Shown here one piece after another: positions 10,519-60,791 of a stretch of 64,000 nucleotides of DNA (position 1 is its first letter; each line of letters opens with the position of its first letter). The notes under the pieces were generated by a model. That model ran no database searches. It was not told where the DNA came from and worked only from the letters and a program-made list of their open reading frames with translations. A program made the translations under genes and the position numbers. The stretch is from assembly GCA_021803025.1 (NCBI GenBank), contig JAJZQV010000004.1, positions 1 to 64,000 of the forward strand, read 5' to 3'. The stretch comes from Actinomycetes bacterium. GTDB taxonomy: Bacteria; Actinomycetota; Actinomycetes; Propionibacteriales; Propionibacteriaceae.

Positions 10519-11832
10519 CTAGGAGAGATCCCGAGCCAGTTGCTCGATGGGGTGAAGGCCGGACCCGAAGCGCGAAATCACTTCACGGTTGGCGCTCAGC
10601 TCGCTGTACGGAAGGTAGCGGACATGGAGATCGGCGACTCGGCTGAAGGCTGGGCGCATCAGCTGCGCCCGAACCTCCTCCTCGCGAGCATCCGGCGCGA
10701 CCAGGTAGAGGCCTCGCGCGGCCCCTGGCTCGCCTGAGAGGGCAAGGTCGAGCATCCGGACGATGCCGGAATAGATGGATGTGGTGTGCTCCACCTCGAA
10801 CGCGGCCGCGACGTGGTCATCCTTAAGCCAGAGCACGTCGATGAGCCCTATCATCTCGGCGGCCGGGCTCGAAGAGACGGATACAGGCAATGACCGAAGG
10901 CACCCGTCACCGAGGCGGCCATTCTCGAAGGGTCGGCTCCGGTCGTTGCTGGCGATCCAGGTCTGGAATCCGAGCGCCAAGCCGAGGTCTCGCAGCCAGC
11001 CCTGAACTTCGGTGTGGGTGGCGTCTTCCCGATTCGGAGTCCCCAGACTGGCGTCGGCGTCTTGCTTCTTCCTTATGTCATCCAACTCCGCTCGCCAGGC
11101 TGCCACTGCCGCCTCCGGCTGTTGGCCTGGGAGTGGCGGGGACACGTAGCGACCGTTTCCGATGTCAAAGAGAAGCCCAGCGATAGCACCCAGATCGGTG
11201 GAGAGGATGTCCTTCAGCTCGCGATTGATCCTCAAGACTCCCGCTCGCATCGCCAGATACTCATCCCAGCGGCCGAGCTTGACGCGTGCTCCGGTGAGGT
11301 CGTTGTAGCCGCGCACGATCGCCGTGTTGAACGGCGGTGCGATCGTCGGGTGCAGGAAGTAGAGGAGGTTGGCGGCCGCCGGCCCCAGCCCCCGCACTCC
11401 TCGACTCGCGAACGATGTGACGGCCTGAAGGACTTGAGCCTCGGTGGTGCAGCACCGACATGTTTCGAGCATTCGACCGAAAGCAAGCTGGTTGCCGCGG
11501 TCCTCGTAGATGTCGGGGATACGGAGCTTCGGCTTCCATTGGAAAGCATGGTCGGCCCCCTTGAACATCGGTCGTTGCTCGGCGACGCCACGCACCACCG
11601 TCTCCAACGAGGAGCCCTTGAAAGCTCGCCCGAACTTGTCGGCTTCGATCTCGGCACTCACCTGCTCGATCCCGCGCCGCAGCGATCTGAAGTTCTTAAG
11701 CCGCTCGGGCCATAGGAACCAGCTTTGGTAACTTCCCCCAGGATCTTCTCGCCAGGCGAGGGCGAGCTGCCGGATTGCCGTCCAGTCGAGTTCGACTGAA
11801 CTGTTCGCTGAGGCAGGGGTCGGGGTGGTCAC
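10519..11832 (-). CDS. Putative PD-(D/E)XK nuclease-like protein
   Basis: A 437-residue soluble protein without a family I can name. The C-terminal third contains GLIDVLWLKDDHVAAAFEVEHTTSIYSGI. The Asp and the FEVEHT element, followed by TSIYSG, recall the core of PD-(D/E)XK nucleases, although the usual Lys is replaced by His. The middle has GVRGLGPAAANLLYFLHP, which resembles a helix-hairpin-helix or a glycosylase-like turn, followed by PFNTAIVRGYN. DNA cleavage or repair is thus a reasonable guess, for example a stand-alone restriction-like enzyme. It is a single gene convergent with the polyferredoxin gene and upstream of the relaxase. A two-cysteine CRCC near residues 124-127 is also notable. 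Confidence 0.6.
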   Translation of the reverse strand: MTTPTPASANSSVELDWTAIRQLALAWREDPGGSYQSWFLWPERLKNFRSLRRGIEQVSAEIEADKFGRAFKGSSLETVVRGVAEQRPMFKGADHAFQWKPKLRIPDIYEDRGNQLAFGRMLETCRCCTTEAQVLQAVTSFASRGVRGLGPAAANLLYFLHPTIAPPFNTAIVRGYNDLTGARVKLGRWDEYLAMRAGVLRINRELKDILSTDLGAIAGLLFDIGNGRYVSPPLPGQQPEAAVAAWRAELDDIRKKQDADASLGTPNREDATHTEVQGWLRDLGLALGFQTWIASNDRSRPFENGRLGDGCLRSLPVSVSSSPAAEMIGLIDVLWLKDDHVAAAFEVEHTTSIYSGIVRMLDLALSGEPGAARGLYLVAPDAREEEVRAQLMRPAFSRVADLHVRYLPYSELSANREVISRFGSGLHPIEQLARDLS

Positions 11833-12028: not shown

Positions 12029-15000
12029 TCACGGCCTGCGCGCGGGTACGTCCTGGATGTGCCCCGGGCGTCTTGAGTGGTCGAGCCGCTCTCGCGGTGC
12101 CGCAGCCGTTGGCTGAGCGGGTCGTGGATCTGCAGGCTTGCTGGTCCGGCGGGCCTCAGTCTCGCGGGCGATGCCTTGCTCGGCGGCCTTGCGCGGGTCG
12201 GCGTTCCAGTTGCGGGCTTGGTCAGCGAGGGCCGTTCGCACGGTCTCCGGTGGTGCATCGAGGGCTCGTGAGATGAGGTTGATGCCGTCTGGCCAGTTCG
12301 AGGTCGGGCTCGCGGCAAGGGCTGCGGCCGCCGCGTTGATGGCGGCGGCGGGCGACCCGGTGGAGGTTAGGTCGTGGATCATCTGGGTCGCCATCGGGGT
12401 GGAGTGGTCGAGGATCATGTTGAGGGTTGAGGGCCCGTCGCTGGTGAGGATCGATGCAGGGTCGCTGCCGGTGGGGAGCAGGGCGCGGGCGGGGTTGGCG
12501 CCCCAGGCGGAGAGCTGCCAGTAGTCGCGGACTGCAGCCTCTCTGCCTGCCGTGTCGGCGTCGGTGGCGATGACAACCTGGCCCTGTCCACATAGGAGTG
12601 CGGCTTGCTGGTCTGTGAGTGCGGTGCCGAGGGGCGCGAGGCCGCTGTAGCGGCGGGGGTTGCTGAGGGTGATGGCGATGGCGTCCATGGGTCCTTCGAC
12701 GATGACCGGGATGGTGCCGGGGTGCCAGGTGCCATAGAACTGGTCGCCCTTGTGGAACAGGGCCGTCTCGCTGGTGTTCAGGTACTTCGGGGTGTCGTCG
12801 CTTGCGTCGGGGTGGCGGCGGCCGACGAAGCCGAGGATCGCTCCGGTGGGGTCGGTGATCGGGAAGACGACGCGGTCGCGGAACTGGTCGATCAGGCTGT
12901 TGGTGCGGCGAGTTCTGATGGCAACGCCAGCGAGCGTCATCTCCTGGTCCGACACGCCGTGGGTGCGGAGGTGGCGGACCAGGCTGGTCCAGCCGTTGGG
13001 GGCGTAGCCGGGCATGACTCGTGGGTGGGCGGTGAGGTCGGTGTGGAAGCGTTCGGCGAGGTAGGCCTGGGCCCAGGATCCGGGTAGCTGGGCGGCGTAG
13101 TAATCCTGGGTGAGTCGGTTGATCTGAATGAGTCGGTCGCGGGGGATGGGGCAGTCGCGCCAGGCGTCCGCGCGGGCGAACATGCGGCGGATGTCGGCAT
13201 CGGTGGGCTCTGGTCGACCCAGGTTCTGATGGACCAGGGCCGTGAGGGCGAGGTCCGCGTCGACGCGGACCGCGATTGCAGGCTCGGTGGGCGACGGATG
13301 GCGTGTGACGGGCCGGGGGAGGTCGAGATCTGCAGGTGGCAGGTCCTCGGGCTGCGCCTCGATGGGGTCTGGTGGTCCTTGGGTGAGGGTGGCGATCTGG
13401 CAGACGAGTGCGAGGCAGTGATCCATGTCGGGGGAGACGGGGGCAGGGCTGAGGAGGCTGTGGAGGCTGAACCCGCGTTCGAGGGCCGTGTCGACCAGGT
13501 CGCTCAGGGTGGGCCAGAACGGGCTCTGTTTCAGGTCGACGGCGGTGCCGGCACCGACCACGCTGGCTATTTGGGTGGCCCATTGGCCGGGTGTGGGTCG
13601 CTGGTGGGCGGCGGTGAGTGCGTCTCGGGTGAGGATGCGGGTGATCCTCCACCACAGTGCGGACGCGGGGTGGTCGTCGGGTAGCGGACCGGCGCCGACG
13701 GCTGTGGCCAGGACCCCGCGGGTGTCCACGTTGGCTCGAGAGAGGGCCGCGAGGTGTTCGGCGAGGTGCCCGATGTACGGGTCTCGGTCGAGGGTCGGGT
13801 CGATGTCGTGGAGGGTGTCGCGCCATTCGATGAGCGCTGGTGCCTGGCCGTCCCGTACCCGTGCGAGGAGCCGGGTCTGGTGGTCGAACGCGAGTCGTGA
13901 GATCTGCGTGGGGCCGGTGGGGCGTCGGTCGGTGGGGTCGATGCTCATCGCGGCGCGCCAGACCTCGACGTCGTTCAGGGTGGCGGTGTCGGGCATCCGG
14001 GCACCTGCGTTGACCCAGATGGGTGTGGCCGCCTGGGAGACGGCTTGATCCCTCACGATGGTCACGAGGTCGGATACGAGGCGCGCGCGACGTGTCAGCC
14101 AGGGCCCGTACTCGGGGTCCTGGCGGAGCGGGTCCGGGGCCGGGCTGAGCCAGGGGAGAGGACCCGACCGAGTACCTGGGAGGGTGGTGGGGTCGAGCCT
14201 CCAGGCCAGGATGGCGGCCCGGTCGCGGGCTCCCGTGAGGTCGCGGTTCGCTAGGGCCTGGTCCAGTTGAAGCATCGGGTCGTGGCCGTGGGCGGCGAGC
14301 AGGATCAGGTGCGTCCGAAGTGTCGGCCAGGCGGCTTCGTCGATGATTCCGGGCAGTACGTGCTGGGCGTGCTCCTCGATGCTGGTCACGGTGGCTGTGC
14401 CGAGGTGGTGTTCGGCGGCGGCGGTGATGCCGTCGGTGTAGGCGCGGACGGCGTCGCCGAGCTGGAGCCGCGGGTCGATCTGGGCACGCAGTAGGGAGGT
14501 CGCCGACTCGGGGGAGGCGTCCCGGGCGAGGATCTGCTCGAGCAGGTCGGTGGGGGTCGGTGGGGTGATCGCTTCGGGCCGGATGAGGGTGGTGTCGTCG
14601 CCGTCGGTGACGGTCTGGAGCCAGATGTGGTTCTCGTACCGGCCGCGGGTGGCCATCGTGTAGAGCTGCTGACGGGTCAGGTCGGGGGTGGCAACGGTGT
14701 GGGTGGTGTCGCTGGAGATGCCTTGGGCGGCATGGATGGTGCAGGCATAGCCGAGCTCGACCGATGCGGCCACGTACTGGTGGGGGAGTGTCATCAGCCG
14801 CCCGGTGGGCCGGTGCTGCACCTGCAGGTCGCCGCCGGGGCTGACCTGGCGGACGGTCCACCGGTCCCCGTTCTTGACCCAGTCCGTCCGGGACCAGCGC
14901 AGCCGACGGTCGTTCGTCCGGGTGATCACCACATCACCGGCCGAGGCCTTGTTCCCATCCGCCAGCACCGCCTCCCACCCCGGAACACCCTCAGCGCCGG

Positions 15001-17434
15001 TGTGGGCGAGTCGGTCAGTGCGGGCACGGGCATTCAGGTCGGAGACCAGGGCGACCGTAGGGGCGAGCAGAACAGCGTCCAGACCCTTGTCTAGGTCAGC
15101 ACGCCAGGCGCTGTAGGCGTGGTCGGTGACGGTGGCGAGGTCTCCGACATGGACCCGGTGGTTGTCGAGGTAGAACCCGAGCGCGGCGGGGTCGCCGTCG
15201 CGGAGGGCGAGGGAGGCGGCGGCTTCGGCGGGGTCGGCGAACCGCATCAGCTCGATCAGGGTGATGGCGCCGTGGACGGTCCGGATGTCGCGCAGGACGC
15301 CGCCGGCGCCGATCGCGGCCAGCTGCTGGTCGTCCCCGATCAGCCGAATAGTGGCCCCCCGGCCGGCGAGCCAGGTGGTGACCTTGTCGAGGCTGATGGT
15401 GTCAGCCATCCCGGCCTCATCGACGATCACCAACGTCCCCGGACCGATCCCGGAGGCCCAGTCGGGGAGGTCGTGGTGGTCGATGCCGTGGACCAGTTTC
15501 GCCATCGTGTCGGTGACCGACCGGGTCTGCGCTCGCAACAGGGCGGCCGCTGCGGCTGACGGTGCGAGCCCGATCAGGGTCCCACCAGCGGCGGTCCAGG
15601 CCCGGCCGAGGACCTGCATCGCAGTCGTCTTGCCGGATCCGGCAGGGGCGATCGCCAGCTGCAAACGGGCACCCGAGGTCGCCATCTGCGTCACCAGATG
15701 CGCCTGCCCCGCGGTCAGTTCCTGCCCTCCCTCAGCACTCTGAGCGATCGCTTGAGCGACGATCTCGGCACCGACGACGCGGGCACCGCGTGCACCAGCG
15801 AGGTCGACCAAGCGCCGTTCCGCCGCGAGCACGGCGTGTGTGGTGAAGAGTTCGGAGCCGGCGACGGTGTAGACGCTGGCCCCGTCCGCGCGGCGGAGTG
15901 CGGGGGGCTCGTGGATGTCGTGGTCGGGGCGGGCGAGGCTGACGCAGCGGTCCTTCGCCATGGCCACGAGCAGCTCGACGGCGGCGGGGATCTGGTCGAT
16001 CCGAATGTGGGCGTAGCGGATCTGGCGCTGTGCTTCGGCCCGCAGATGGACGTCTTGCCAGGTCGCCCCGCGTGCCTCGGCGGCTGCCAGGATCTTCCGG
16101 GTCGCCTGCTCGAACCACGCCGCATCCGCCACCGGACCCGGCCGTTGCGGCCGGGTCAACGCCCGGGCGAGCATGTGCCGCAGCTGATCCTCGCCGCCCA
16201 ACACCTCGACCGCCTGCCGGTGCCACACCGCCCGCTGCTCCCCGATCGTGCGGGGTTCGTGCTTCACATCACGGGTCGCCAACGTCGCCTGCTGCGCCAG
16301 CTTCACCGACTCCACCACCGTCGGCGGACGACCATGATCCCGCTGAAAGGCCGCCACCAAGCCTTCCCGGTAGGCCTCGATCTCGGCCCGCCGCGTCGAC
16401 CACCGCTCATTCAACGCAGGCGACACACCCGAGATCTCACGGACCGGCCGGCCCCGGTCGCGGCTGACATAGCGGTCCTCGAACTGGAGCCCTTCGCGCT
16501 CCAGCAGCTTCACCAACGCCGTGTTGTAGGTCTCGGAGGCGGCCACGATGCCCTTGAACAACACCCGCCCATCGATCGCCAACCACTTCCCGCTCCCGGT
16601 CGCTTTCACCTTGTTCGCGACCGCGACATGGGTGTGCAGATCCGGGTCCCCGGCGCGGGTGTCTCGGTGGGTGAACGCGGCCCCGATCAGCCCGGTGACG
16701 TTGACCTGACGGGCTCCGCCGGTCCCTTCCCGGGTGAACAACAACGACGTCTCCACATACCGCAGCGCGATCTTCACAGCCTCCCGATGCGCGGTCTCGA
16801 TGCGAGCCGCGATCCCCGGGCTGGCGACCGCCCACAACGTCGAGACGCTCTTCGGCGGCGAGAACGTCAGGTCGAAACCGGCCACCGTCGTCGCCGCCGG
16901 CCGCGACGCCCGCGCAATGAACCCGGACAGCTCGCGGGCATCCAAGGGCGCCCGGCCGAACTCCGCCATGAACATTCCCCGGGCCACCCGCGTGCGGATC
17001 GCCGCCCGATCATCCACCGACACAGCAGCCCCACCAGGAAGGCCCCGGGACCGGTTCAACGCGTCTATCTGCCGCGCGACCTCGACCCGAAACGCGGTGG
17101 GTCCTCCGGTGGGCCGGAAAGGTGAACCCAGCCGGATCGCCGCCGCCAGCGCAGTCGACGAGGCGTCGTCCCCGAGGGCTCTCTCGAGCTCTGCTCCGAT
17201 CGGGTTGGTGCCGGCGCCGAACAGGGCCTGCATCTGCTCCGCGGTCACCACCGACCCGGCGAACCCGGGTCGGATCGCGTCACAACCGGTCCCGATCCAC
17301 ACCCCGGGGGTCTCCCCGCGCTCGGTGTAGTACGACGCGAGACCGGTGTAGCCCTTCTCCGTCGAGTCCATGGCAGCGACCTGCCGGGTCAGGTAGTCAT
17401 ACCCCGACCCCGCCGTCAGCTTGTGCAGCGACAT
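12029..17434 (-). CDS. MobF relaxase-helicase with C-terminal DnaG-type primase domain
   Basis: Conjugative relaxase of 1801 residues starting at ATG 17434 (MSLHKLTAGSGYDYL). The N-terminal TrwC/MobF domain (about 1-330) has N-terminal tyrosines (Y12 and the pair Y35-Y36), FDLTFSPPKSVS, and the metal triad HRD...LHTHVAVANK (H256, H267, H269). A RecD2/TraI-like helicase follows, with Walker A PAGSGKTT (about 597-604) and Walker B IVDEAGMAD (D672, E673). The C-terminal third matches the DnaG catalytic core: GYAPNGWTSL, FRDRVVFPITD, PKYLNTSETALFHKG, then the Toprim residues EGPMDA (E1580) and DAD (D1625, D1627). It should nick oriT, unwind the transfer strand and prime synthesis. TrwC-helicase fusions are usual; the added primase is less common. 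It is divergent from a small accessory gene. Confidence 0.93.
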   Translation of the reverse strand: MSLHKLTAGSGYDYLTRQVAAMDSTEKGYTGLASYYTERGETPGVWIGTGCDAIRPGFAGSVVTAEQMQALFGAGTNPIGAELERALGDDASSTALAAAIRLGSPFRPTGGPTAFRVEVARQIDALNRSRGLPGGAAVSVDDRAAIRTRVARGMFMAEFGRAPLDARELSGFIARASRPAATTVAGFDLTFSPPKSVSTLWAVASPGIAARIETAHREAVKIALRYVETSLLFTREGTGGARQVNVTGLIGAAFTHRDTRAGDPDLHTHVAVANKVKATGSGKWLAIDGRVLFKGIVAASETYNTALVKLLEREGLQFEDRYVSRDRGRPVREISGVSPALNERWSTRRAEIEAYREGLVAAFQRDHGRPPTVVESVKLAQQATLATRDVKHEPRTIGEQRAVWHRQAVEVLGGEDQLRHMLARALTRPQRPGPVADAAWFEQATRKILAAAEARGATWQDVHLRAEAQRQIRYAHIRIDQIPAAVELLVAMAKDRCVSLARPDHDIHEPPALRRADGASVYTVAGSELFTTHAVLAAERRLVDLAGARGARVVGAEIVAQAIAQSAEGGQELTAGQAHLVTQMATSGARLQLAIAPAGSGKTTAMQVLGRAWTAAGGTLIGLAPSAAAAALLRAQTRSVTDTMAKLVHGIDHHDLPDWASGIGPGTLVIVDEAGMADTISLDKVTTWLAGRGATIRLIGDDQQLAAIGAGGVLRDIRTVHGAITLIELMRFADPAEAAASLALRDGDPAALGFYLDNHRVHVGDLATVTDHAYSAWRADLDKGLDAVLLAPTVALVSDLNARARTDRLAHTGAEGVPGWEAVLADGNKASAGDVVITRTNDRRLRWSRTDWVKNGDRWTVRQVSPGGDLQVQHRPTGRLMTLPHQYVAASVELGYACTIHAAQGISSDTTHTVATPDLTRQQLYTMATRGRYENHIWLQTVTDGDDTTLIRPEAITPPTPTDLLEQILARDASPESATSLLRAQIDPRLQLGDAVRAYTDGITAAAEHHLGTATVTSIEEHAQHVLPGIIDEAAWPTLRTHLILLAAHGHDPMLQLDQALANRDLTGARDRAAILAWRLDPTTLPGTRSGPLPWLSPAPDPLRQDPEYGPWLTRRARLVSDLVTIVRDQAVSQAATPIWVNAGARMPDTATLNDVEVWRAAMSIDPTDRRPTGPTQISRLAFDHQTRLLARVRDGQAPALIEWRDTLHDIDPTLDRDPYIGHLAEHLAALSRANVDTRGVLATAVGAGPLPDDHPASALWWRITRILTRDALTAAHQRPTPGQWATQIASVVGAGTAVDLKQSPFWPTLSDLVDTALERGFSLHSLLSPAPVSPDMDHCLALVCQIATLTQGPPDPIEAQPEDLPPADLDLPRPVTRHPSPTEPAIAVRVDADLALTALVHQNLGRPEPTDADIRRMFARADAWRDCPIPRDRLIQINRLTQDYYAAQLPGSWAQAYLAERFHTDLTAHPRVMPGYAPNGWTSLVRHLRTHGVSDQEMTLAGVAIRTRRTNSLIDQFRDRVVFPITDPTGAILGFVGRRHPDASDDTPKYLNTSETALFHKGDQFYGTWHPGTIPVIVEGPMDAIAITLSNPRRYSGLAPLGTALTDQQAALLCGQGQVVIATDADTAGREAAVRDYWQLSAWGANPARALLPTGSDPASILTSDGPSTLNMILDHSTPMATQMIHDLTSTGSPAAAINAAAAALAASPTSNWPDGINLISRALDAPPETVRTALADQARNWNADPRKAAEQGIARETEARRTSKPADPRPAQPTAAAPRERLDHSRRPGHIQDVPARRP

Positions 17435-17631
17435 CACACCCCAAGAGGCCCCCACCGACCAGGCTCCGGCCCATGGGCAGGCACTGATTTCGGGACAGTC
17501 CTGCCCGACGTGCAGGAGGTGTGTGGGACATGGACGGGGAACGTTTGTCCGGAACAGGCCTCCCGACATCTGAGCCGGAACGACTCCCGAGAACGCTTCG
17601 TATCAGTGACAGGTTTGGGAAGGAGCCAGGG
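17435..17631. other. Candidate oriT / divergent promoter region of the transfer genes
   Basis: This 197-bp gap separates the MobF relaxase from a divergent small basic coiled-coil protein, the usual position of oriT. It has short repeats of CCGGAAC (near 17548 and 17574) and GGGACA/GGGACAT words, but no long inverted repeat that I can point to as a nic site. Confidence 0.4.
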
Positions 17632-17940
17632 ATGTCGAAGTCTCAGGACCGAGTGGAGGCGCGAAGGGCGATCCAGGAGCGGGCGATCGCCAGGCGGCGG
17701 GAGCGTGAGCAGCAAGACGAACGGATCGCGAAACTCGCGCTGGAGGTGAGCGTGGCGCTTCACGAGGGACGACGCGCTGTCGAGGCGGCGGAACGGCGGG
17801 CAGGGCTGGCCCTGAGCCTCATGTTCACGGGAGAGGGTCTGTCCGTGACCGAGGTGATCGACTGGGTGGGCGACTCAAGTCTCACGGCGCGAGAAATCGC
17901 GCGGTTGCGTGGCCTCGCCACCCGCTCACCCGAACAGTGA
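17632..17940 (+). CDS. Small basic coiled-coil transfer accessory protein
   Basis: A 102-residue protein from ATG 17632, preceded by GGAAGGAG. The first half is strongly charged and helical (RVEARRAIQERAIARRREREQ), then QQDERIAKLALEVSVALHEG continues the coiled coil. The C-terminal part reads LSVTEVIDWVGDSSLTAREIARL, which looks like a short helix-turn-helix. No metal or catalytic motif is seen. The position, divergent from the relaxase across a 197-bp gap, suggests a relaxosome accessory protein that binds oriT, comparable in role to TrwA or MobC, but I do not recognise the family. Confidence 0.7.
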   Translation: MSKSQDRVEARRAIQERAIARRREREQQDERIAKLALEVSVALHEGRRAVEAAERRAGLALSLMFTGEGLSVTEVIDWVGDSSLTAREIARLRGLATRSPEQ

Positions 17941-21197: not shown

Positions 21198-22223
21198 TCA
21201 GCCTGGGCGTTCGACCGGTTCGGCCATCCGCCGCCGACTCTCTTTGTGAAGATTGATCGGCGTGACGTCCAGTACACGTCGGACCATCGTTTCCATGAAC
21301 CTCGCCGGGGAGACTGACTCGGGGATGGCGTCGTGCCGGATGCTAACTGCGGGGAGGGTGGTCAGACTCCGCTCAACGTCAAGGTCCGTTAGGTCAGGCG
21401 GTGGATCCTCGGCAGTGGGATCGGTTTCGACGCCGGCGGCTACCAGCGGTTCGTCGATCGCTTCGGGCGGTCCTTCGGGGGCGTTTCCGCCGTACTCGAT
21501 CATGACCAGGCATGTGGCGTGATAGGCGTCATCTTCGCGGCCAAGCTTCCCCAGGAGGTCGATCAGCCAAGCGGCAGTATCGGGTTGGGTGTCCAGGATG
21601 TCTGACCTGAGACCGAAGACGAACCCGAGTGCTGCAAGAGGGTGACGTAGCCTCAGGTTCTTGGCGTCCCCGTAGGACTCCTCGACTCGGTTCGCGGCGT
21701 TGTTGCCATAGGACGAGTCCATGCGTTTGGTCGAGATGAGGAGCTGAGGGCCGGTCATCCAGTCCGTCATGATGACGTCGACCTGTTTGAAGTAGTTCTT
21801 GCCGAGGATGCTCGCGCTCGCTGAGGTCACACCTTGGATGCTCGACGCCTTCTGCAGCCTGAGTTGGAGGGCTTCTCGTTCCTTGGCGGTAACAGCTCGC
21901 AGGAGTTGCACGATGGGCATGGGAAGGATCCTCGGATGCTGTGCCCTGGGCCACGTCGCGTCTGCGTCGAACCCGGCACGCCGCAGTTCGTAGCTCAGCC
22001 AGACGTCTAGTGCGAGGGCCGGAACTCCGCTCTGCGTTTCGGCGCCCAACTGGAGGGGCACGGCAAGCAGCCGTTCCAGGGCCGAGAAGTCGGGCTGGTA
22101 CTTGACGTGTCCCTCTCCGTCGCGGATCCAAGGATTGGTATGGATTCCCGCCGGTGCGGCGTCGGCCACGATCTTGTCGAACAGGCCCCATGCTTGTTGC
22201 TTCGAGTTCGGGCTACCGGCCAT
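21198..22223 (-). CDS. Putative type II restriction endonuclease
   Basis: A 341-residue protein from ATG 22223, preceded by GAGGAG at five bases. The central segment FKQVDVIMTDWMTGPQLLIS followed by TKRMDSS gives an Asp, then a Ser-x-Lys, compatible with a PD-(D/E)XK nuclease core in which Ser replaces the second acidic residue. NRVEESYGDAKNLRLRHPLAA follows. The protein lacks methylase motifs. Its start overlaps the end of an N6-adenine methyltransferase gene by 11 bases on the same strand, so it is best explained as the cognate endonuclease. Recognition sequence unknown. A XamI-like endonuclease is one candidate family, but I cannot confirm it by eye. Confidence 0.75.
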   Translation of the reverse strand: MAGSPNSKQQAWGLFDKIVADAAPAGIHTNPWIRDGEGHVKYQPDFSALERLLAVPLQLGAETQSGVPALALDVWLSYELRRAGFDADATWPRAQHPRILPMPIVQLLRAVTAKEREALQLRLQKASSIQGVTSASASILGKNYFKQVDVIMTDWMTGPQLLISTKRMDSSYGNNAANRVEESYGDAKNLRLRHPLAALGFVFGLRSDILDTQPDTAAWLIDLLGKLGREDDAYHATCLVMIEYGGNAPEGPPEAIDEPLVAAGVETDPTAEDPPPDLTDLDVERSLTTLPAVSIRHDAIPESVSPARFMETMVRRVLDVTPINLHKESRRRMAEPVERPG

Positions 22224-23868
22224 TGCCACTCCTCGAAGTGCGTCGTCCACTGAGCACGGCCCGAGCCTCGCGGAGTGCCTCGCGGGCTGGCTTCTCAAGG
22301 TCTGCCAGGACGATGTTGTCGATGGTGTCAACGGCCCCCGCCAGGTCACCGCTCTCCAGAAGCTTGCTGACCCGGGGCTTGGCTTCCCTCAAGGGGGCTG
22401 CGTGTTCGCGGACAGTCGTAAGGGACGGCATGGCCCACACGTCGGCCTCCCTGGGTTCGATCTTGAGAACGCCGCCCCCGTAAGCCCTGCCGACCAGCTC
22501 GGCGCTGAGAAGGGTCGCTGAGTTGAGGCTAGCCAGAGACAAGAGCTCGTTTCCGATGTCCCTCACCTCAGTGTTCAGACGGACCCCGTGAACTGAATTG
22601 AGGTGGCGTGCTTGGGCTGAGTTAGTCACGAGCCTCGGCGTGTCGGCATTCATACACGTCAGGAGGAGATCCGCCGGCGGCAACAGTGGGACCTTGTACC
22701 AGGTCTGGCGGACTCGGCACTTGTAGGCCTCGTTCACCCCCGTGCGCAGGCCATCCTTTATGTATTCGGCTGCCGCGGGAGAAGGATGGTCGGTGGGATA
22801 GAACATCCACGTGGCTCGGCCAGCCTGGCCCAAAGCATCCAGCTTCTGTCGAGTCATCGCCAGGCCCCGAAGGTGAGCACTTCCAGGCGGGGAGATCCGA
22901 AGCAACTCACTGCGCCCTAGACCCAGGTCTCTTGCCCGCTGCGGCGACATTGTGAAGTAAGTGTTGTTGCCCGTCACCATGCCAAGGGAGGTATCTCCCC
23001 AAGCCTTCAAGGTGGTGAAGTTCCCTTCATCGCGCAGCATTGCAAGAGCGCGGGATGCATCCGGGTCAACTAGGGCAACCGTCCACTTGGCCGACGGGTC
23101 GGACGGCGTCCAGGACTGCCCCGGGGAAAGAGTTGTCAGCGCGGCAGCGTTCCTGGCTGACCTGATCACAGCCTGATCCGTGGGACCCTGCCGGTAACCG
23201 TCAGCCAACAGGAGTAGGGCGTCGGCCTCCGCGTTCGGAAAGACTTGCTCGTCGAACATCACCAGATCGACACTTCGGAAGTGATCGAACAGGTATCGCC
23301 GCACCGGTGCCGCGTAGTTCACCGTCAGCAGCTCCGCCGGAAGCACCAACCCGAGCCGACCACCCGGCTTCAAGAACAGCGATGAGTGGATCGTGAAAGC
23401 AGCCCAGCTTGATGCCAGCCCGTTCAAGGAGACGCCACCTCGCAGCGCCGCCCGCTGCGCTCGCGCCCGCTGCTCCCCAGTGAAGCCCTGGTAGCGGATG
23501 TAGGGGGGGTTGCCGATGACCGCGTCGTACACGGGTTGGGGATCGACAGTGAAGAAGTCCGCCTCACGGATATCCGCCCGGCCACCAGTCGCGGCCACTC
23601 GCGCTGAAGCCGCACGTACGCTCTCGCCGTGGATCTCGACCGCATCAACTTGCGGTACGGCAGACGCGGCGCCCGCCAGACCTCGGAGGCGATCGACCGC
23701 CGCCACGAGGAATGCAGCATCGCCAGCTGAGGGTTCGAGGACTCGATCATCCTGGTCCCGCAGCGCCCATGCGGCGACGAACCTGGTGATCTCCTCCGGG
23801 GTGAAGAAAGCTCCGCGGGCCTTCCTTAGCGTCGGGCTGTCCACGACGGGCGAAGGCACAGGACTCAT
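22213..23868 (-). CDS. Type II DNA N6-adenine methyltransferase
   Basis: SAM-dependent modification methylase of about 551 residues (ATG 23868; an upstream ATG at 23910 adds 14). The order of motifs is that of the gamma class (TaqI/Eco57I-like): motif X GAFFTPEEI near residue 20, motif I VLEPSAGDAAFL near 45, an acidic VEIHGESV, and the catalytic NPPYIRY near 120. The C-terminal half is a target-recognition domain. It methylates adenine within the sequence cut by the endonuclease encoded immediately downstream (11-bp overlap). The methylase-first order allows protection before cutting. The pair is complete and in frame. Confidence 0.92.
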   Translation of the reverse strand: MSPVPSPVVDSPTLRKARGAFFTPEEITRFVAAWALRDQDDRVLEPSAGDAAFLVAAVDRLRGLAGAASAVPQVDAVEIHGESVRAASARVAATGGRADIREADFFTVDPQPVYDAVIGNPPYIRYQGFTGEQRARAQRAALRGGVSLNGLASSWAAFTIHSSLFLKPGGRLGLVLPAELLTVNYAAPVRRYLFDHFRSVDLVMFDEQVFPNAEADALLLLADGYRQGPTDQAVIRSARNAAALTTLSPGQSWTPSDPSAKWTVALVDPDASRALAMLRDEGNFTTLKAWGDTSLGMVTGNNTYFTMSPQRARDLGLGRSELLRISPPGSAHLRGLAMTRQKLDALGQAGRATWMFYPTDHPSPAAAEYIKDGLRTGVNEAYKCRVRQTWYKVPLLPPADLLLTCMNADTPRLVTNSAQARHLNSVHGVRLNTEVRDIGNELLSLASLNSATLLSAELVGRAYGGGVLKIEPREADVWAMPSLTTVREHAAPLREAKPRVSKLLESGDLAGAVDTIDNIVLADLEKPAREALREARAVLSGRRTSRSGNGR

Positions 23869-24164
23869 CACCCCATCCTGCCGCACAGCCGCCCTGATCA
23901 CCCGGTTCATCTTGCGTGTGTCGAACCCAGGTCGTCCCGCACGGCACGCCCTCTTGGGGACGGGCGCGCAGGGTCACAGGGCGAGGCCTCCTCTCAGCAG
24001 TGAGTCGAATCGAACCGCTTCGGGCTGGCAGGCCCGATCCCGGGTGTGGCGCTCGCCAGGGAGGGGCGCATGAACCAGTGATGCACCAGATGCGCCCACG
24101 ATCTTGCCTTGGGGTACCAGTTGACGCCCCTAGATCAGACGGCGCAGCAGGGTAGGTTCGTCCC

Positions 24165-25073
24165 GTGACCGACGCAGCCAGACCCCAGTACCGGGTGCTG
24201 ATCACCGACCTGGATAACACGCTCTGGGATTGGTTCGGGGCCTGGTTCAAGTCTTTCGACGCCATGCTAGAGCGTTTGACAGCCTTGTCCGGAGTTCCTC
24301 GAAGTGAGCTCGAGGCAGAGATTCGCGATATTCATCGGCTGCGTCACACGACTGAATATTCAAACCTCGTGAACGAGATCCCTGCCCTTGTTTCGGCCGC
24401 CAGGGGAGAGGATCCGAGCAGATTCTTCCACGAAGCATTACACGTCCTCCGGTCTACCCGTCGCGCGGAGACTAGGCTCTATCCAGCTGTGTTGGAGACC
24501 TTGCGAATGCTCCGCGAGAGGGGAATTCGCGTAATCGCCTATACTGAATCGGTAGCATATTGGACTGAATGGCGAATCAAGTACACGGGCTTGGACGGGA
24601 TGTTGGATGTCTTATACTCAGCGCCAGATCATGACCTCCCCACGGGAATGACCCGGGATAATCTTCGCCATCTCTCGGCCGATTCTTATGGGCTCCGAAT
24701 GACTGAGCATCGCCATATCCCAAGAGAAGCCACGAAACCGAACGTAGCAGTCCTCAGATCGATCTTGGCAGATGCGGGGATTGAGCCGGAGCAGGCAGTC
24801 TACATCGGCGACAGCCTCATGAAGGACGTCGCGATGGCCCAGGCGGCAGGAGTGCTCGATGTACATGCGGCGTACGGAGAAGCCCAGGCCGCCGAGGGAT
24901 ACGATCTGTTGAGGCGCGTGTCACACTGGTCTGATAGCGAAATCCAGCGCGAGAGGACGCTCTTCGAGCATCGTGAGACGATCACCCCGTCGGTCGTTTG
25001 CGAAAGTGGTTTCCACCAAATCCTATCCGTGTTCGACCTAAAGGGTATCTATGACAGAAGACGCGAACAATGA
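24165..25073 (+). CDS. HAD-superfamily hydrolase-like protein
   Basis: A 302-residue protein from GTG 24165. HAD motif I is DLDNTLWDW with both aspartates (D15, D17), motif II is probably the AYTES segment near residue 125, a Lys lies in EATKPNV, and motif IV is GDSLMKD near 225. A helical cap domain of about 90 residues separates motifs I and II. The DLDNTLW start resembles magnesium-dependent phosphatases such as MDP-1 and FkbH, but the cap differs. The base composition is visibly AT-richer than its neighbours, a sign of separate acquisition. Its last 23 bases overlap the membrane-protein gene in another frame, so the two are likely co-expressed. The substrate is unknown; a nucleotide or protein phosphate is possible. 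Confidence 0.8.
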   Translation: MTDAARPQYRVLITDLDNTLWDWFGAWFKSFDAMLERLTALSGVPRSELEAEIRDIHRLRHTTEYSNLVNEIPALVSAARGEDPSRFFHEALHVLRSTRRAETRLYPAVLETLRMLRERGIRVIAYTESVAYWTEWRIKYTGLDGMLDVLYSAPDHDLPTGMTRDNLRHLSADSYGLRMTEHRHIPREATKPNVAVLRSILADAGIEPEQAVYIGDSLMKDVAMAQAAGVLDVHAAYGEAQAAEGYDLLRRVSHWSDSEIQRERTLFEHRETITPSVVCESGFHQILSVFDLKGIYDRRREQ

Positions 25074-25680
25074 GGTAGTTGAGAGCTCCTCGATATTGAC
25101 AGAGAGCGAACGGGTGAGCTTCTACATGGAAATGTGGAAGCAGTCCGTCGAGACTCAGCAGCACTTCAATACAATTGAGTGGCAGATCCGCGGGCTTGCC
25201 CTGACTGTGGCTACATTCGCCCTGGGCGCCTCTGGTTTGGTGGCTAAAGACGGAATCTCTATCGGGAAGATCAGCTTCGGTGCGGTCGTCTCGGTGGCCG
25301 GGCTCGTGCTTTGGTACGCCTTCTACTTCGTGGATCGGTACTGGTATCATCCGCTCCTCAAAGCAACTGTCGACCATGGATCACTTATCGAGGATGAGAT
25401 CAAGAGGAATCTTCCGCAGGGCGGTATGACGAGGAAGATCACAGCTGGGAGCGCGTACAAGCCGAATCGCCTAGTGAGGTTTCTGAGCCGGACGCCAAAG
25501 GGGGGAGAAATGCACTCTGATGATAAGCTGGCGTGGTTCTACAAGATTGGAGCAGCGGCGCTCCTGGTCACTGCGGTGGGTTTGCAGGCAGCAGCCCTTC
25601 TATCCCCGGTTGCCCCGTCGCCGCAACAAGTCGTTGTCTCTGTGACCCAGGCGGCATCTTCCGGGCCAACTCATCGCTGA
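25051..25680 (+). CDS. Three-helix membrane protein coupled to the HAD gene
   Basis: A 209-residue protein from ATG 25051. The N-terminal 45 residues are acidic and helical, then come two helices (about 46-64 and 72-95), a cytoplasmic basic loop (KRNLPQGGMTRKI), and a third helix near 170-190 with a short tail. The segment MEMWKQSVETQQHFNTIEW before the first helix is characteristic of small membrane proteins seen next to defence genes, loosely similar to the SLATT and RipA-like groups, but I cannot assign a family. The gene overlaps the HAD gene by 23 bases. Together they look like an enzyme-plus-membrane-effector pair. Confidence 0.7.
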   Translation: MTEDANNEVVESSSILTESERVSFYMEMWKQSVETQQHFNTIEWQIRGLALTVATFALGASGLVAKDGISIGKISFGAVVSVAGLVLWYAFYFVDRYWYHPLLKATVDHGSLIEDEIKRNLPQGGMTRKITAGSAYKPNRLVRFLSRTPKGGEMHSDDKLAWFYKIGAAALLVTAVGLQAAALLSPVAPSPQQVVVSVTQAASSGPTHR

Positions 25681-25776: not shown

Positions 25777-26592
25777 TCACACTGGGGGAGTAAGCCCGCT
25801 CGTGCCGCCCTGCTTGGCTGCGTAGTAGATCAACCCACCAGCTGCGAGCAGCACTACAGCGCCAATGAGGAACTGCTCGGGCGTGAGGTGTAGCTGCGCG
25901 TCCATGCGCAGGTTCAAGCTGAACACCGGCGCCGGGAGCGCGGCGGGTGCCATTCCGGGCTCGCTCAGTCTGAGTCCGATGTTGCGTAGGCCTGTCGTGA
26001 TCGCGGCCGTCGATGCGGCAAGGTCGTTGCGGTCGAATCGGACCTGCTCCACATCGGTGAGCATGCCCATCGGCAGATTGCCGAGGCTCTTCTCAACGAG
26101 AGCGATGGCGAGCTTCCCGCTCATCGCCACGTAGCCGGCCTCCTGCTGTACGTAGGGAGAGGCATACCCGTCGTCAGTCAACAAGACGACATAGCCGCTG
26201 GAATCCCGCAACTTCTGGGCAACCTTGTCCGTGAGACGCGCTCCTGGCTGGTAGTCCCACTCGGCCACCCATGCCTCGTGCCCGCTGGCTTCCACCTGCT
26301 CCTTGAGCCATCGTGCGAGCGTTTCGTCCTTGGTGGCGTGGCTGATGAAGACCGTCGCGCGGGTTGGCGATGGTGGCTGTTGGATGCCGCTGAGACTCAA
26401 GTCGCAGGTGTACCACGCTGGTGTGACCAATTCTTCGATGACGGCCAACATCGTGCTGAGCAACATCGCCGCACGTGGCTGGAGTTCGGTCCCCAGAGCC
26501 CGGAACTGCTTGTCCTCGGTACCCCGCGCTGCGACGAGGTTGTCAACATGCACGACGTGACGCGGCGCGACAATGTGCCGGCTGAATGACAA
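25777..26592 (-). CDS. TIR-domain protein with C-terminal transmembrane helix
   Basis: A 271-residue protein whose residues 79-200 form a TIR domain: ATVFISHATKDE (strand A and box 1), WVAEWDYQPGARL (BB loop), YVVLLTDDGYASPYVQQE with the putative NADase glutamate E151, and a final helical part. A hydrophobic helix near 240-258 (FLIGAVVLLAAGGLIYY) anchors the C-terminus. Bacterial TIR domains degrade NAD+ or make cyclic ADP-ribose derivatives in anti-phage defence. The leftmost start is a TTG at 26592 without a good Shine-Dalgarno sequence; internal ATG codons near residues 43 and 48 are alternatives and would keep the TIR domain intact. It is convergent with the HAD/membrane pair. Confidence 0.82.
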   Translation of the reverse strand: MSFSRHIVAPRHVVHVDNLVAARGTEDKQFRALGTELQPRAAMLLSTMLAVIEELVTPAWYTCDLSLSGIQQPPSPTRATVFISHATKDETLARWLKEQVEASGHEAWVAEWDYQPGARLTDKVAQKLRDSSGYVVLLTDDGYASPYVQQEAGYVAMSGKLAIALVEKSLGNLPMGMLTDVEQVRFDRNDLAASTAAITTGLRNIGLRLSEPGMAPAALPAPVFSLNLRMDAQLHLTPEQFLIGAVVLLAAGGLIYYAAKQGGTSGLTPPV

Positions 26593-55681: not shown

Positions 55682-56527
55682 TCACTGATGACTCAGTGGG
55701 CCGAGTGAGGAGCCGTAGAAGCCTTGGACGAGGCGTGCTGCGCCTTCGAGCGCCTGATGTTCGAGGCCGAGCTCCGAGGCCATAGCGGTGAATGGGCCTC
55801 CCCAATCGCCCGGCGGAGCCGGCAGGAGGGAGGGCGGAGCGGAGTCGTCGCGCTCGGCGAACACGGCCTCGACAGCGCTGGCGTAGGCATTCGGCTCCAG
55901 GAGGCCGTGCTCAATCAGCAAGGTGAGGTCGATCATGTCCTTCACGCGGGACGAGGGGCGATCGTGTGCATAGACACGTGCGTAGGCGTGAGTCTTCTCG
56001 GCCGCGTGCCGGGCCACGTCCACGCTTCGCATGGCGAACGGCTCACCGCCGAAGACCGGGCTCACGGCTACTGCGTCGAGCCCGCCGGTGGGCTCGCTCC
56101 CGCTCGTGACCACGTCGATTGTCACAGTCTGGAATGGACTGTGCGCCACGTGGACGTCGACGACGACCCGCCACGTGGAGGGCATCTCGTCCTCAGCGCG
56201 AACCTGGCGCGGCAGCCGCACGGCGAAGGTGAGGTCGTCGCCGAGGTCCACCTCCAGCGCCTCGTCCAGGAGATCCTGAAGGGCGGGAGCAGACAGACCG
56301 GTTGCATCCCAACGAAGCAGGTCGAGATCCTTCGTCGACCGCGCTGTCAGCCCAAGGCGCAGTTCAAGGCTGAACCCGCCTTTGAGCACCCATCGGGGAT
56401 CGCGGGACAGGCGGGCGAGCACGCGCTGGAACACGTACCGGTTGCGGACACGCTGGGCAGCCACGCCTTCCTGGACGGCGAGGTTGCGGAGACGATGGTT
56501 CAGGCTGACCAGTCGAGAGTCAGGCAT
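55682..56527 (-). CDS. AbiEii nucleotidyltransferase toxin
   Basis: A 281-residue type IV toxin of the DUF1814 nucleotidyltransferase family. Motifs: VLKGGFSLELRLG followed by RSTKDLDLL (the GG...DxD-type site), VTIDVVTSGSEP, and the later VDVARHAAEKTHAYARVYAHD with the conserved Lys, and DMIDLTLL. Start ATG 56527 overlaps the AbiEi stop by eight bases; an upstream start exists but would extend into the partner. AbiEii-type toxins transfer nucleotides to tRNA and mediate abortive infection. Confidence 0.92.
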   Translation of the reverse strand: MPDSRLVSLNHRLRNLAVQEGVAAQRVRNRYVFQRVLARLSRDPRWVLKGGFSLELRLGLTARSTKDLDLLRWDATGLSAPALQDLLDEALEVDLGDDLTFAVRLPRQVRAEDEMPSTWRVVVDVHVAHSPFQTVTIDVVTSGSEPTGGLDAVAVSPVFGGEPFAMRSVDVARHAAEKTHAYARVYAHDRPSSRVKDMIDLTLLIEHGLLEPNAYASAVEAVFAERDDSAPPSLLPAPPGDWGGPFTAMASELGLEHQALEGAARLVQGFYGSSLGPLSHQ

Positions 56528-57119
56528 CCGGGTCCGCCTTCGCGAGCGCCCGTTCCAGGCGCAGCGCGGCGTGAGGGGGGAGATCGGCTGTCGCACGCAG
56601 GAGCCGGCGGCGCGTCAGGAGTCCGCGCCGCAAGGCGTCGTCGATTGCCCGATCGATCTGCTCCTGCGAGACGTCGGTCGCGGCGGCGTCGGCCAGAGTT
56701 CGCAGCGGCGTTGTAACGGCCCATCCGCGCCGCTGCTCACGCTCGTCCTCACGGAGGTCGGCGACGTGAAGCACGACGAGGCTGTCGCTTGCGCGCATGC
56801 CCGGCGGGACGGTCAGGTGCACCTTCGCGGGGTCGATGTCCGATAGGCCGTGGATGGCGAGGGCCGAATCGTGCGAGACGACGCCGCGCCCGGCGCTCCA
56901 CAACGTCCAGCGAACGAAGATGTCGTCGGGGTCCGACGGCCACTCAGGCAGTCGGAAGAGGCCGCGGTCCACCCGCACCCAGTTGCCGGCGTCGACGTGG
57001 TACCTCTGGGCCTGATAGCTGTAGCCCGCCTCGAGCGCCTGGGCCGCGGTGAAGTAGCCGGCCTGCTGGAAGGCTATGGCGTGCAAGGCTCGGCGGAGAT
57101 CCTGGCGATGGCTTGGCAC
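56520..57119 (-). CDS. AbiEi antitoxin
   Basis: A 199-residue antitoxin starting at GTG 57119. The N-terminal winged helix (FTAAQALEAGYSYQAQRYHV followed by WVRVDRGLFRL) and the C-terminal domain (SHDSALAIHGLSDIDPAKVH, TTPLRTLADAAATDVSQEQI) match the type IV AbiEi family. It represses its own promoter by binding inverted repeats and counters AbiEii without contact with it. It precedes the toxin by an eight-base overlap. Confidence 0.92.
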   Translation of the reverse strand: MPSHRQDLRRALHAIAFQQAGYFTAAQALEAGYSYQAQRYHVDAGNWVRVDRGLFRLPEWPSDPDDIFVRWTLWSAGRGVVSHDSALAIHGLSDIDPAKVHLTVPPGMRASDSLVVLHVADLREDEREQRRGWAVTTPLRTLADAAATDVSQEQIDRAIDDALRRGLLTRRRLLRATADLPPHAALRLERALAKADPDA

Positions 57120-59424: not shown

Positions 59425-60585
59425 CTAGTCACTGACGAGCCTCGAGAGGCTCTCCGCGATCAGCTCATCGCGCCCCTTCGCGGTGTGTTGGTACAGCAGC
59501 GCCGCGTTTGCCGTGGAGTGACCGAGGCGTGCCTGCAGGTCCGCGAGCGTCGCTCCCTGCTGCGCGGCCATCACGGCTCCCGTGTGGCGGAGGTCGTGGA
59601 AGCGGAGGTCTGGGCGTCCGGCGATGGCCGCGGCCTTCTTGAAGTGGGTGGTGACCGTGGAGGGCCACATCTGGCGTTTGACGTCCGAGGGGAAGAGCAG
59701 GCCCTCCTGGCCCGGCGCGGCGTGGATCTCCAGGTGCTCCTGGATGATCGGGATGAGGTGCGGGGGTATGGCTACGTCCCGGATGCCGGCCTCCGACTTC
59801 GGGAGTTCCACACGGATCTCACGTCTCACGAAGGTCACGCCTCGGCGTACCTGAATCACCCCGGTCCATCGACCACCGACGTGGCGAAGCTTGATGTCCT
59901 TGCGGCGGAGCTCGGCGATCTCGCCGTACCGAAGCGCGCACCAGGAGGCGAGTTGGATCATGAGCTTCTCCTTGACCGGCATCTTCTCGACGATGATGTC
60001 GAGCTCCTCGATCGTGGCCGGCTCGAGCCGTCTGCGCTTGGGGCGGTAGCCGGCCCCTCGGATATGTACAGGGCTGGCCTCGATGAGGTCTTCGTCGACC
60101 GCGGTGTTCATGATGGCCCGCAGCAGCCCGTATGCCTTCGACGTCGCCCGCGGGCTGTCGGCGCTGCCGTCCTGGGTCTCGTCGTACCACTTACGGACAG
60201 TGCCCTTCGTGATGTCGCGCAGCCGCATCTTCCCGAAGACTGGGACCAGGTGGATCCAGGGCGTCGTGACGTACCCCGCTCTCGTAGTGGCCCTCAACGG
60301 CTCGCCCTTGTCCGTACGTCGCTTGGCAATCCACTTCGTGGCGTAGGTCTCGAAGTCGGGGACCAGCTGGGTCGCGCGGGCCTTCTCGGCGCGGTACTTC
60401 GGGGGAGACCACTCGTTCGCTTCGATGAGCTTGTGCTCCTCGTGGAGCCAGCCCTCGACGTCGATCTTGGCCGTGAACGTGGTCGGTGCCATGTGCCGCA
60501 GGAGGTCCGGGCCGGTGTAGATCCCCTGGTACCGACCCGACGTGAGCTTGCGGATCGAGCCGAACGCGCGGCGCTCGCGGACCAT
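59425..60585 (-). CDS. int: Tyrosine recombinase/integrase
   Basis: A 386-residue integrase. The N-terminal arm-binding region (FGSIRKLTSGRYQGIYTGPD) is a short beta-rich domain, followed by a SAM-like core-binding domain and the catalytic domain. Catalytic residues seen: R219 in CALRYGEI, K about 263, H330 and R333 in HDLRH, H356 in LGHST, and Y365 in LLYQH. It inserts the island into tRNA-Met by recombination in the 69-bp att core and faces away from it, 106 bp from the right att repeat. Confidence 0.96.
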   Translation of the reverse strand: MVRERRAFGSIRKLTSGRYQGIYTGPDLLRHMAPTTFTAKIDVEGWLHEEHKLIEANEWSPPKYRAEKARATQLVPDFETYATKWIAKRRTDKGEPLRATTRAGYVTTPWIHLVPVFGKMRLRDITKGTVRKWYDETQDGSADSPRATSKAYGLLRAIMNTAVDEDLIEASPVHIRGAGYRPKRRRLEPATIEELDIIVEKMPVKEKLMIQLASWCALRYGEIAELRRKDIKLRHVGGRWTGVIQVRRGVTFVRREIRVELPKSEAGIRDVAIPPHLIPIIQEHLEIHAAPGQEGLLFPSDVKRQMWPSTVTTHFKKAAAIAGRPDLRFHDLRHTGAVMAAQQGATLADLQARLGHSTANAALLYQHTAKGRDELIAESLSRLVSD

Positions 60586-60602
60586 CGGGCCCTCCGATCC
60601 TT

Positions 60603-60630
60603 ATTGCACGACGTCCGCATATCGTGCGAT
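60603..60630. promoter_or_regulatory. Candidate integrase arm site, right
   Basis: ATTGCACGA pairs with TCGTGCGAT over 10 bases. It shares TATTGCACGA with the repeat at 54019-54037. It lies between the integrase start and attR, so it could also serve as an autoregulatory site. Confidence 0.5.
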
Positions 60631-60690
60631 GAGGCGGGTCTCATGCAAGGCCATGCCCCCTTGTGGCCTGTGGCCATCCGAGTAACAAGC

Positions 60691-60759
60691 CCTAGTCAGC
60701 GAGCACTAACGTGCTGGTGGGGCGGGTGGGGCTCGAACCCACGACCCAGGGATTATGAG
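60691..60759. repeat. attR: 3' half of tRNA-Met
   Basis: Perfect 69-bp copy of 53909-53977. It spans the anticodon stem-loop through the CCA end and 24 bp of downstream sequence, so insertion keeps the tRNA functional. Confidence 0.95.
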
Positions 60760-60791
60760 TCCCCTGCTCTGACCGGCTGAGCTACCGCCCC
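60715..60791 (-). tRNA. tRNA-Met (anticodon CAT)
   Basis: The minus strand gives GGGGCGG acceptor with CCGCCCC partner, D-arm GCTCAGCCGGTCAGAGC, anticodon loop CTCATAA (CAT), variable loop and T-arm GGTTCGAGCC, with encoded CCA (60715-60717). CAT may also be tRNA-Ile2, but elongator tRNA-Met is more likely. Confidence 0.93.

Follow-up and report, generated by a model that had tools for sequence, protein, structure and literature searches.

A combination of relaxase, helicase and primase in one chain is already in print for another relaxase type, so that the MOBF form analysed here is a variant on a known theme. TraATi of Rickettsia bellii likewise carries a relaxase, a helicase and a C-terminal Toprim primase, but its relaxase is of the MobA/L type whereas that of the 1801-residue protein described below is of the TrwC/MobF type; in the available parts of that paper (PMC4564193), its authors suggest priming in the donor or the recipient and regard the primase as peculiar to relaxases of rickettsiae. 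According to excerpts of two reviews, MobA-RepB' of RSF1010/R1162 (MOBQ) also links a relaxase to a transfer-active primase (PMC12857230, PMC5714925). The Toprim primases of conjugative plasmids, RP4 TraC and ColIb/R64 Sog, are transferred and prime in the recipient, as stated in the accessible text of PMC5512222 and PMC4595007, and they are not fused to a relaxase, unlike the protein described here. More generally, plasmid primases prime transferred DNA (PMC4595007, PMC5512222 and PMC5714925, in excerpt). Iyer et al. place Toprim primases across conjugative elements, both fused and solo (excerpt of PMC5512222), a 2025 review of T4SS assigns a helicase to MOBF relaxases and a possible primase to MOBQ ones (excerpt of PMC12857230), and the available part of another review proposes that primase activity in some relaxases may widen host range (PMC5714925).

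A search limited to the open-access literature, and for most papers to their listing entries, returned no description of a MOBF–primase fusion, and the accessible parts of PMC4564193, PMC12857230, PMC5714925, PMC12375680, PMC8563766, PMC3218068 and PMC6305408 describe none. MobF–primases with the same domain order are encoded by the plasmids pNOCA01 (Nocardioides sp. JS614), pA-N39 (Pimelobacter simplex) and pTC1 (Paenarthrobacter aurescens), where they are annotated just as "MobF family relaxase" or "Toprim domain". These proteins share 42–50% identity with the 1801-residue protein over 90–98% of its length. Whereas they reside on plasmids, the copy studied here lies on a 65-kb contig that has tRNA genes and lacks a coupling protein.

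Domain organization of the MobF protein

The mobF gene is a single open frame of 1801 codons at positions 12029–17434, found on the minus strand only. A gene on the plus strand was rejected because that strand is full of stops, and a longer, 1846-residue product starting at an upstream ATG was rejected because relatives align from MSLHKL and a conserved putative nick site lies inside the extension. From the N- to the C-terminus, the chain carries a relaxase domain of the TrwC type, a RecD-like helicase, a stretch of about 510 residues that no Pfam model matches, and then DNAG_N and Toprim. Since full-length relatives with about 50% identity are encoded on annotated plasmids, this combination is far beyond chance.

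The relaxase domain (positions 16205–17413, minus strand; residues 8–410) matches Pfam TrwC with an E-value of 2e-80 (PF08751, 270.9 bits against a cut-off of 25) and the NCBIfam MobF model NF041492 with 226.6 bits against a cut-off of 100. The relaxase motif THRDTRAGDPDLHTHVAV is at residue 255, and the HUH histidine triad is formed by H256, H267 and H269 in THRDTRAGDPDLHTH. Tyrosines near the N-terminus of the relaxase, any of which may be the catalytic one, are at residues 12, 14, 29, 35 and 36. An SF1 helicase of the RecD/TraA-like type follows at positions 14615–15718 on the minus strand (residues about 573–940), C-terminal to the relaxase on the same chain as in MobF proteins. Pfam AAA_30 covers residues 573–765 (E 3.5e-53), TraA/RecD2 models reach residue 940, and the helicase motifs APAGSGKT, VDEAGM, GDDQQL, CTIHAAQG and MATRGR were located by script at residues 596, 671, 700, 898 and 927, respectively. 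The scripted positions and the Pfam matches thus confirm the earlier note's chain of 1801 residues with a TrwC histidine triad and RecD-like helicase motifs, and add the strand, which that note had left unstated. The curated models, the histidine triad and the helicase together identify the protein at the sequence level as a MobF (MOBF, TrwC-type) relaxase, and assignment to the MOBQ type with a MobA/MobL relaxase was rejected because TrwC was the only relaxase type matched in Pfam. MobA-RepB' of RSF1010/R1162 belongs to another relaxase family, is not known to have an SF1 helicase in its chain and carries a non-Toprim primase.

The C-terminal part is predicted to contain a complete DnaG polymerase core, as had been proposed before from the letters. 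Pfam DNAG_N spans residues 1454–1569 (positions 12728–13075, minus strand; E 1.5e-26) and includes K1550, N1553 and K1562, and Toprim spans residues 1577–1661 (positions 12452–12706, minus strand; matched as Toprim_2 with an E-value of 3.3e-13) and includes E1580, D1584, D1625, D1627 and D1658. The primase motifs PKYLN, EGPMDA and DADTAG begin at residues 1549, 1580 and 1625, with E1580, D1625 and D1627 at the places given earlier. When the C-terminus was compared by sequence with the PDB, all matches were DNA primases (8 distinct sequences, best E-value 4.2e-30). An AlphaFold2 model of residues 1378–1801, built with ten relatives, has a pLDDT of 78.2, falling below 50 only at both ends, and a pTM of 0.75. 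The best Foldseek match of this model is the polymerase domain of Staphylococcus aureus DnaG (4edg, E 1.1e-15), and a VIA alignment with a DnaG polymerase domain gives a Z of 27.6 and an rmsd of 2.5 over 302 aligned residues. The aligned stretch, residues 51–359 of the model, corresponds to protein residues 1428–1736 (positions about 12227–13153, minus strand), so that the modelled core comprises the N-terminal subdomain, Toprim and the helical bundle.

The active site agrees with this prediction. Nine positions (R1539, K1550, N1553, K1562, E1580, D1584, D1625, D1627 and D1658) are invariant among the 19 fused proteins, some of which share only about 30% identity with the 1801-residue protein; the 10 chromosomal DnaGs all keep these residues, as do 12 of the 14 solo element primases. 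In the alignment, E1580, D1625, D1627 and D1658 fall on E265, D309, D311 and D345 of Escherichia coli DnaG. A1660 at the position of DnaG D347 counts against priming by the core, although aspartate is likewise missing from this position in the ten chromosomal actinobacterial DnaGs sampled (cysteine in nine, glycine in one). The fused core shares its predicted RNA-polymerase fold and its active site with bacterial DnaG, which also has a zinc-binding and a DnaB-binding domain, both of which the fused core lacks. Pfam searches at E-values up to 1 found no zf-CHC2 domain in the 1801-residue protein, and no model of a DnaB-binding domain matched at the same limit. The zinc cysteine motif is present in 10 of 10 chromosomal DnaGs as against none of the 32 fused or solo element primases scanned, and the tail following the helical bundle is modelled as disordered. 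Since both domains are absent, the C-terminus is, by sequence and model, a DnaG core and not a full DnaG. The zinc-binding domain is used by DnaG and T7 primases for template recognition, and hence the fused core might start poorly on its own.

Distribution of the fusion and lineage of the primase

The earlier note had called a DnaG-type core on a MobF protein less usual, and this holds across the class but not in the order to which the source genome belongs. TrwC is present in 146 of 394 sampled genomes of the class, and verification left 12 proteins in 11 of the 394 with primase and TrwC in one frame. Among 391 genomes of that order, probably Propionibacteriales, 236 have TrwC at an E-value of 1e-40, 85 have an element-type primase at 1e-72, and 69 together hold 98 element-type primases within frames of 1700 residues or more, where frame length defines the fused state; in a hand check of this criterion, 20 of 20 TrwC frames of at least 1500 residues among the matches listed carried the primase. 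The source genome itself encodes an ordinary DnaG and three MobFs, of which two carry a fused primase. At least nine plasmid records, among the 5000 best-scoring of 72,556 searched, cover at least 80% of the protein in one place, and in the trees the Nocardioides and Pimelobacter plasmid proteins branch among members of the order on very short branches, a placement that points to Propionibacteriales. The fusion is therefore neither unique nor ubiquitous, being uncommon across the class and common in its own order; with a polymerase core also predicted, the analysis gave neither of the two outcomes that the earlier note had named as refuting it. A MobF–primase of 2361 codons of the actinobacterial type is also found on "plasmid 2" of Variovorax sp. 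PBS-H4 (L019:6001-13086), which may reflect transfer across phyla or contamination of the assembly.

The idea that all long MobFs are primase fusions was rejected, since three MobFs of similar length from Rhodococcus and Mycobacterium that were scanned (L020, L033 and L035) contain no primase, suggesting that the primase is dispensable in related systems. These three and two further MobFs of the Rhodococcus or Mycobacterium type (L026 and L027) are about 2000–2175 residues long and have long tails, and the tail of L035 matches TraI_hel_assoc_N, as if it were a second, dead helicase.

A tree of 43 primase cores, consisting of 10 chromosomal DnaGs, 19 fused primases and 14 solo element primases, places the chromosomal DnaGs in one clade (100/100) separate from every fused and solo element primase. 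Derivation from the host DnaG was rejected on the basis of these separate clades and of 30.7% identity over 274 aligned positions, and the sequences point instead to a mobile-element lineage set apart from chromosomal DnaG as the origin of the fused primase. The fused state requires six changes on the primase tree, four of them forced by well-supported branches, and again six, five of them forced, on a tree built from 38 MobF cores, half of them fused, although these counts of gain and loss are rough because the branches of G012 and the Nocardiopsis protein are very long and the G211 frame is truncated.

The primase is also joined to conjugation genes in other ways. In a plasmid MobF of Nocardiopsis changdeensis (L047:4416-11444), DNAG_N/Toprim at residues 709–937 lies between TrwC (30–399) and the helicase (1215–1408). 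Nine further loci were fetched, and in six of them a short MobF of 1181–1212 residues is followed by a separate primase gene on the same strand, the two open frames being 17 to 1135 bp apart. In one (L087:2224-7807), the MobF core and the primase lie in overlapping frames on one strand, as if a frameshift either interrupted a fused gene or were read through in it, and the remaining two have a primase without MobF in the fetched stretch. Solo primases adjoin a coupling-protein gene on Yimella and Micromonospora plasmids and lie near a relaxase of another kind, MOBP included, with MobC on Amycolatopsis and Cellulosimicrobium plasmids, and in Cellulosimicrobium one also lies near a MobF. Besides its fused protein, pTC1 encodes a solo DnaG with a TraA-like protein two genes away. 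Since the primase is fused in some elements and a neighbour in others, these arrangements are good evidence of a joint function with conjugation genes, and with an element-type lineage tied to such genes, the interpretation that suggests itself is that the primase primes transferred DNA.

Candidate nick site and proposed mode of action

A candidate oriT/nic lies upstream of mobF at positions 17499–17526 (plus strand), where a hairpin, TCCTGCCCG-A-CGTGCAGGA (17499–17517), is followed by GGTGTGTGG. Its core motif, CACACCTNNTGCA, is read on the minus strand at 17511–17523, that is, at -89 to -77 from the mobF start, and occurs once in the window (the whole 64-kb stretch of DNA analysed) against 0.01 expected. 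The same motif lies 43–166 bp upstream of mobF in 22 of 31 MobF loci, fused and unfused alike, a count from which two further proteins were left out because their N-terminus did not align. The source genome has three sites as against seven for a reversed control pattern, and therefore only position is telling there, two of the three lying directly upstream of the two fused MobFs. The third copy (L080, C90:84637-84649) may be due to chance or belong to a further mobilizable element, and the motif also occurs once in L066, a locus fetched for its chromosomal DnaG. The complement of the core motif, AGGTGTGTGG, resembles the F nic site, and by this analogy the cut would fall close to 17522/17523, making mobF the last part to enter the recipient. 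In the open literature, a search with the motif retrieved only yak-cell papers, judged from their titles to be primer matches, and one for an oriT or nic site of MOBF in Rhodococcus retrieved nothing. As a candidate nick site, CACACCTNNTGCA can be put to the test in many actinobacterial MobF elements. A small divergent gene lies at positions 17632–17940 on the plus strand, and eight relatives have a homologue (E up to 2e-9) in the corresponding position. Its product of 102 residues, which has no Pfam or NCBIfam match, may be an accessory protein of the relaxosome.

The domain order, the predicted fold, the intact active-site residues, the conserved upstream motif and the repeated linkage of primases to conjugation genes are observations, and a hypothesis to which we give a probability of roughly 0.6 is that the protein, as relaxase of an element that is either conjugative or mobilizable, nicks and unwinds the DNA, enters the recipient and primes the second strand there by its own DnaG-type core. 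The relaxase would nick some 80 bp upstream of mobF and remain covalently attached to the nicked strand at its 5' end, the RecD-like helicase would unwind that strand, and the protein would accompany it into the recipient. The DnaG-type core would then lay RNA primers on the incoming strand, and a host polymerase, which would still be needed, would extend them into the second strand; as the earlier note proposed, this may take place without the host primase. The polarity of the helicase would be 5'-to-3', as for TraI and TrwC. Holding both a 5'-to-3' helicase and a DnaG core, the protein would by itself take over the role of the DnaB–DnaG pair, and a geometry of helicase and primase like that of DnaB with DnaG on the lagging strand would explain the loss of the DnaB-binding domain. 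More tentatively, and at less than even odds in our judgement, the protein may be a single-chain conjugative primosome in which the helicase, moving 5'-to-3' on the transferred strand, feeds the tethered core, so that one protein at the leading 5' end replaces DnaB, DnaG and the loader in the recipient; a zinc-less mobile-element primase would have been captured repeatedly, by C-terminal fusion, by insertion into the middle of the protein or as an adjacent gene, and may make the element independent of priming that is specific to the host. To our knowledge, priming of transferred single strands in Gram-positive recipients has been little studied, and a relaxase equipped with a DnaG-type core of its own would, if the hypothesis is true, be a simple answer to it and could help to explain the host range of actinobacterial plasmids and ICEs. 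The family also lends itself to comparison: it includes MobFs with a fused primase, with a neighbouring one and with none, and many of these have the same motif upstream.

The main rival is that the primase acts mainly in the donor, where relaxase-driven rolling-circle replication of the excised element would proceed with the fused primase priming the displaced or the replacement strand. The same chain is indeed present in the donor first, but a relaxase is an element protein carried with the DNA, as is generally known, and this makes a role in the recipient the simplest reason to fuse; a mainly donor-side function is thus a possible but rather unlikely reading. The accessible text of PMC4595007 gives it some room, since it describes rolling-circle replication of an ICE in its host with a plasmid-encoded primase among three ways of priming, and cites a title in which the ColIb primase is active in both donor and recipient. 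It is improbable that the core no longer primes and is kept as a structural or single-strand-binding tail: the zinc domain is absent, and related MobFs have other long tails, coiled-coil-like or helicase-like, without a known catalytic role, but the nine catalytic or nucleotide-binding positions are kept in all 19 fused proteins despite identities as low as about 30%, and a full polymerase fold is predicted. That mobF is a decayed, functionless remnant in a degenerate island is scarcely credible, as the frame is intact over 1801 codons with intact motifs, and neither the motif upstream nor the divergent accessory gene is missing, while the lack of a coupling protein on the contig, which would favour decay, comes from an assembly fragmented into 191 contigs. 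The preferred reading, priming in the recipient by the relaxase itself, carries a proviso for this copy: a search of the mobF contig found no coupling protein, TraG-D_C matches lying on the contigs C44, C74, C120 and C123, so that the source-genome copy may need help or be incomplete.

Neighbouring genes in the window

On one side of mobF, a type II methyltransferase gene (PADLOC PDLC03301, E 3.4e-222) with an overlapping gene of unknown function occupies positions 21198–23910 on the minus strand, and on the other side a gene resembling type II restriction enzymes (E 1.7e-12) lies at 10519–11832, also on the minus strand. A HAD hydrolase and its partner (24165–25680, plus strand, and 25777–26592, minus strand) match PDLC03008/PDLC03009, a candidate pair in PADLOC. 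A TIR-domain protein is encoded alongside, and these genes near tRNA-Asn are a possible defence cluster. The end of tRNA-Asn, looked for as an att-site repeat, has one copy only in the window. Farther along, an AbiEii/AbiEi pair lies at 55682–57119 on the minus strand, and a tyrosine integrase gene at 59425–60791 on the same strand adjoins tRNA-Met and probably belongs to another integrated element.
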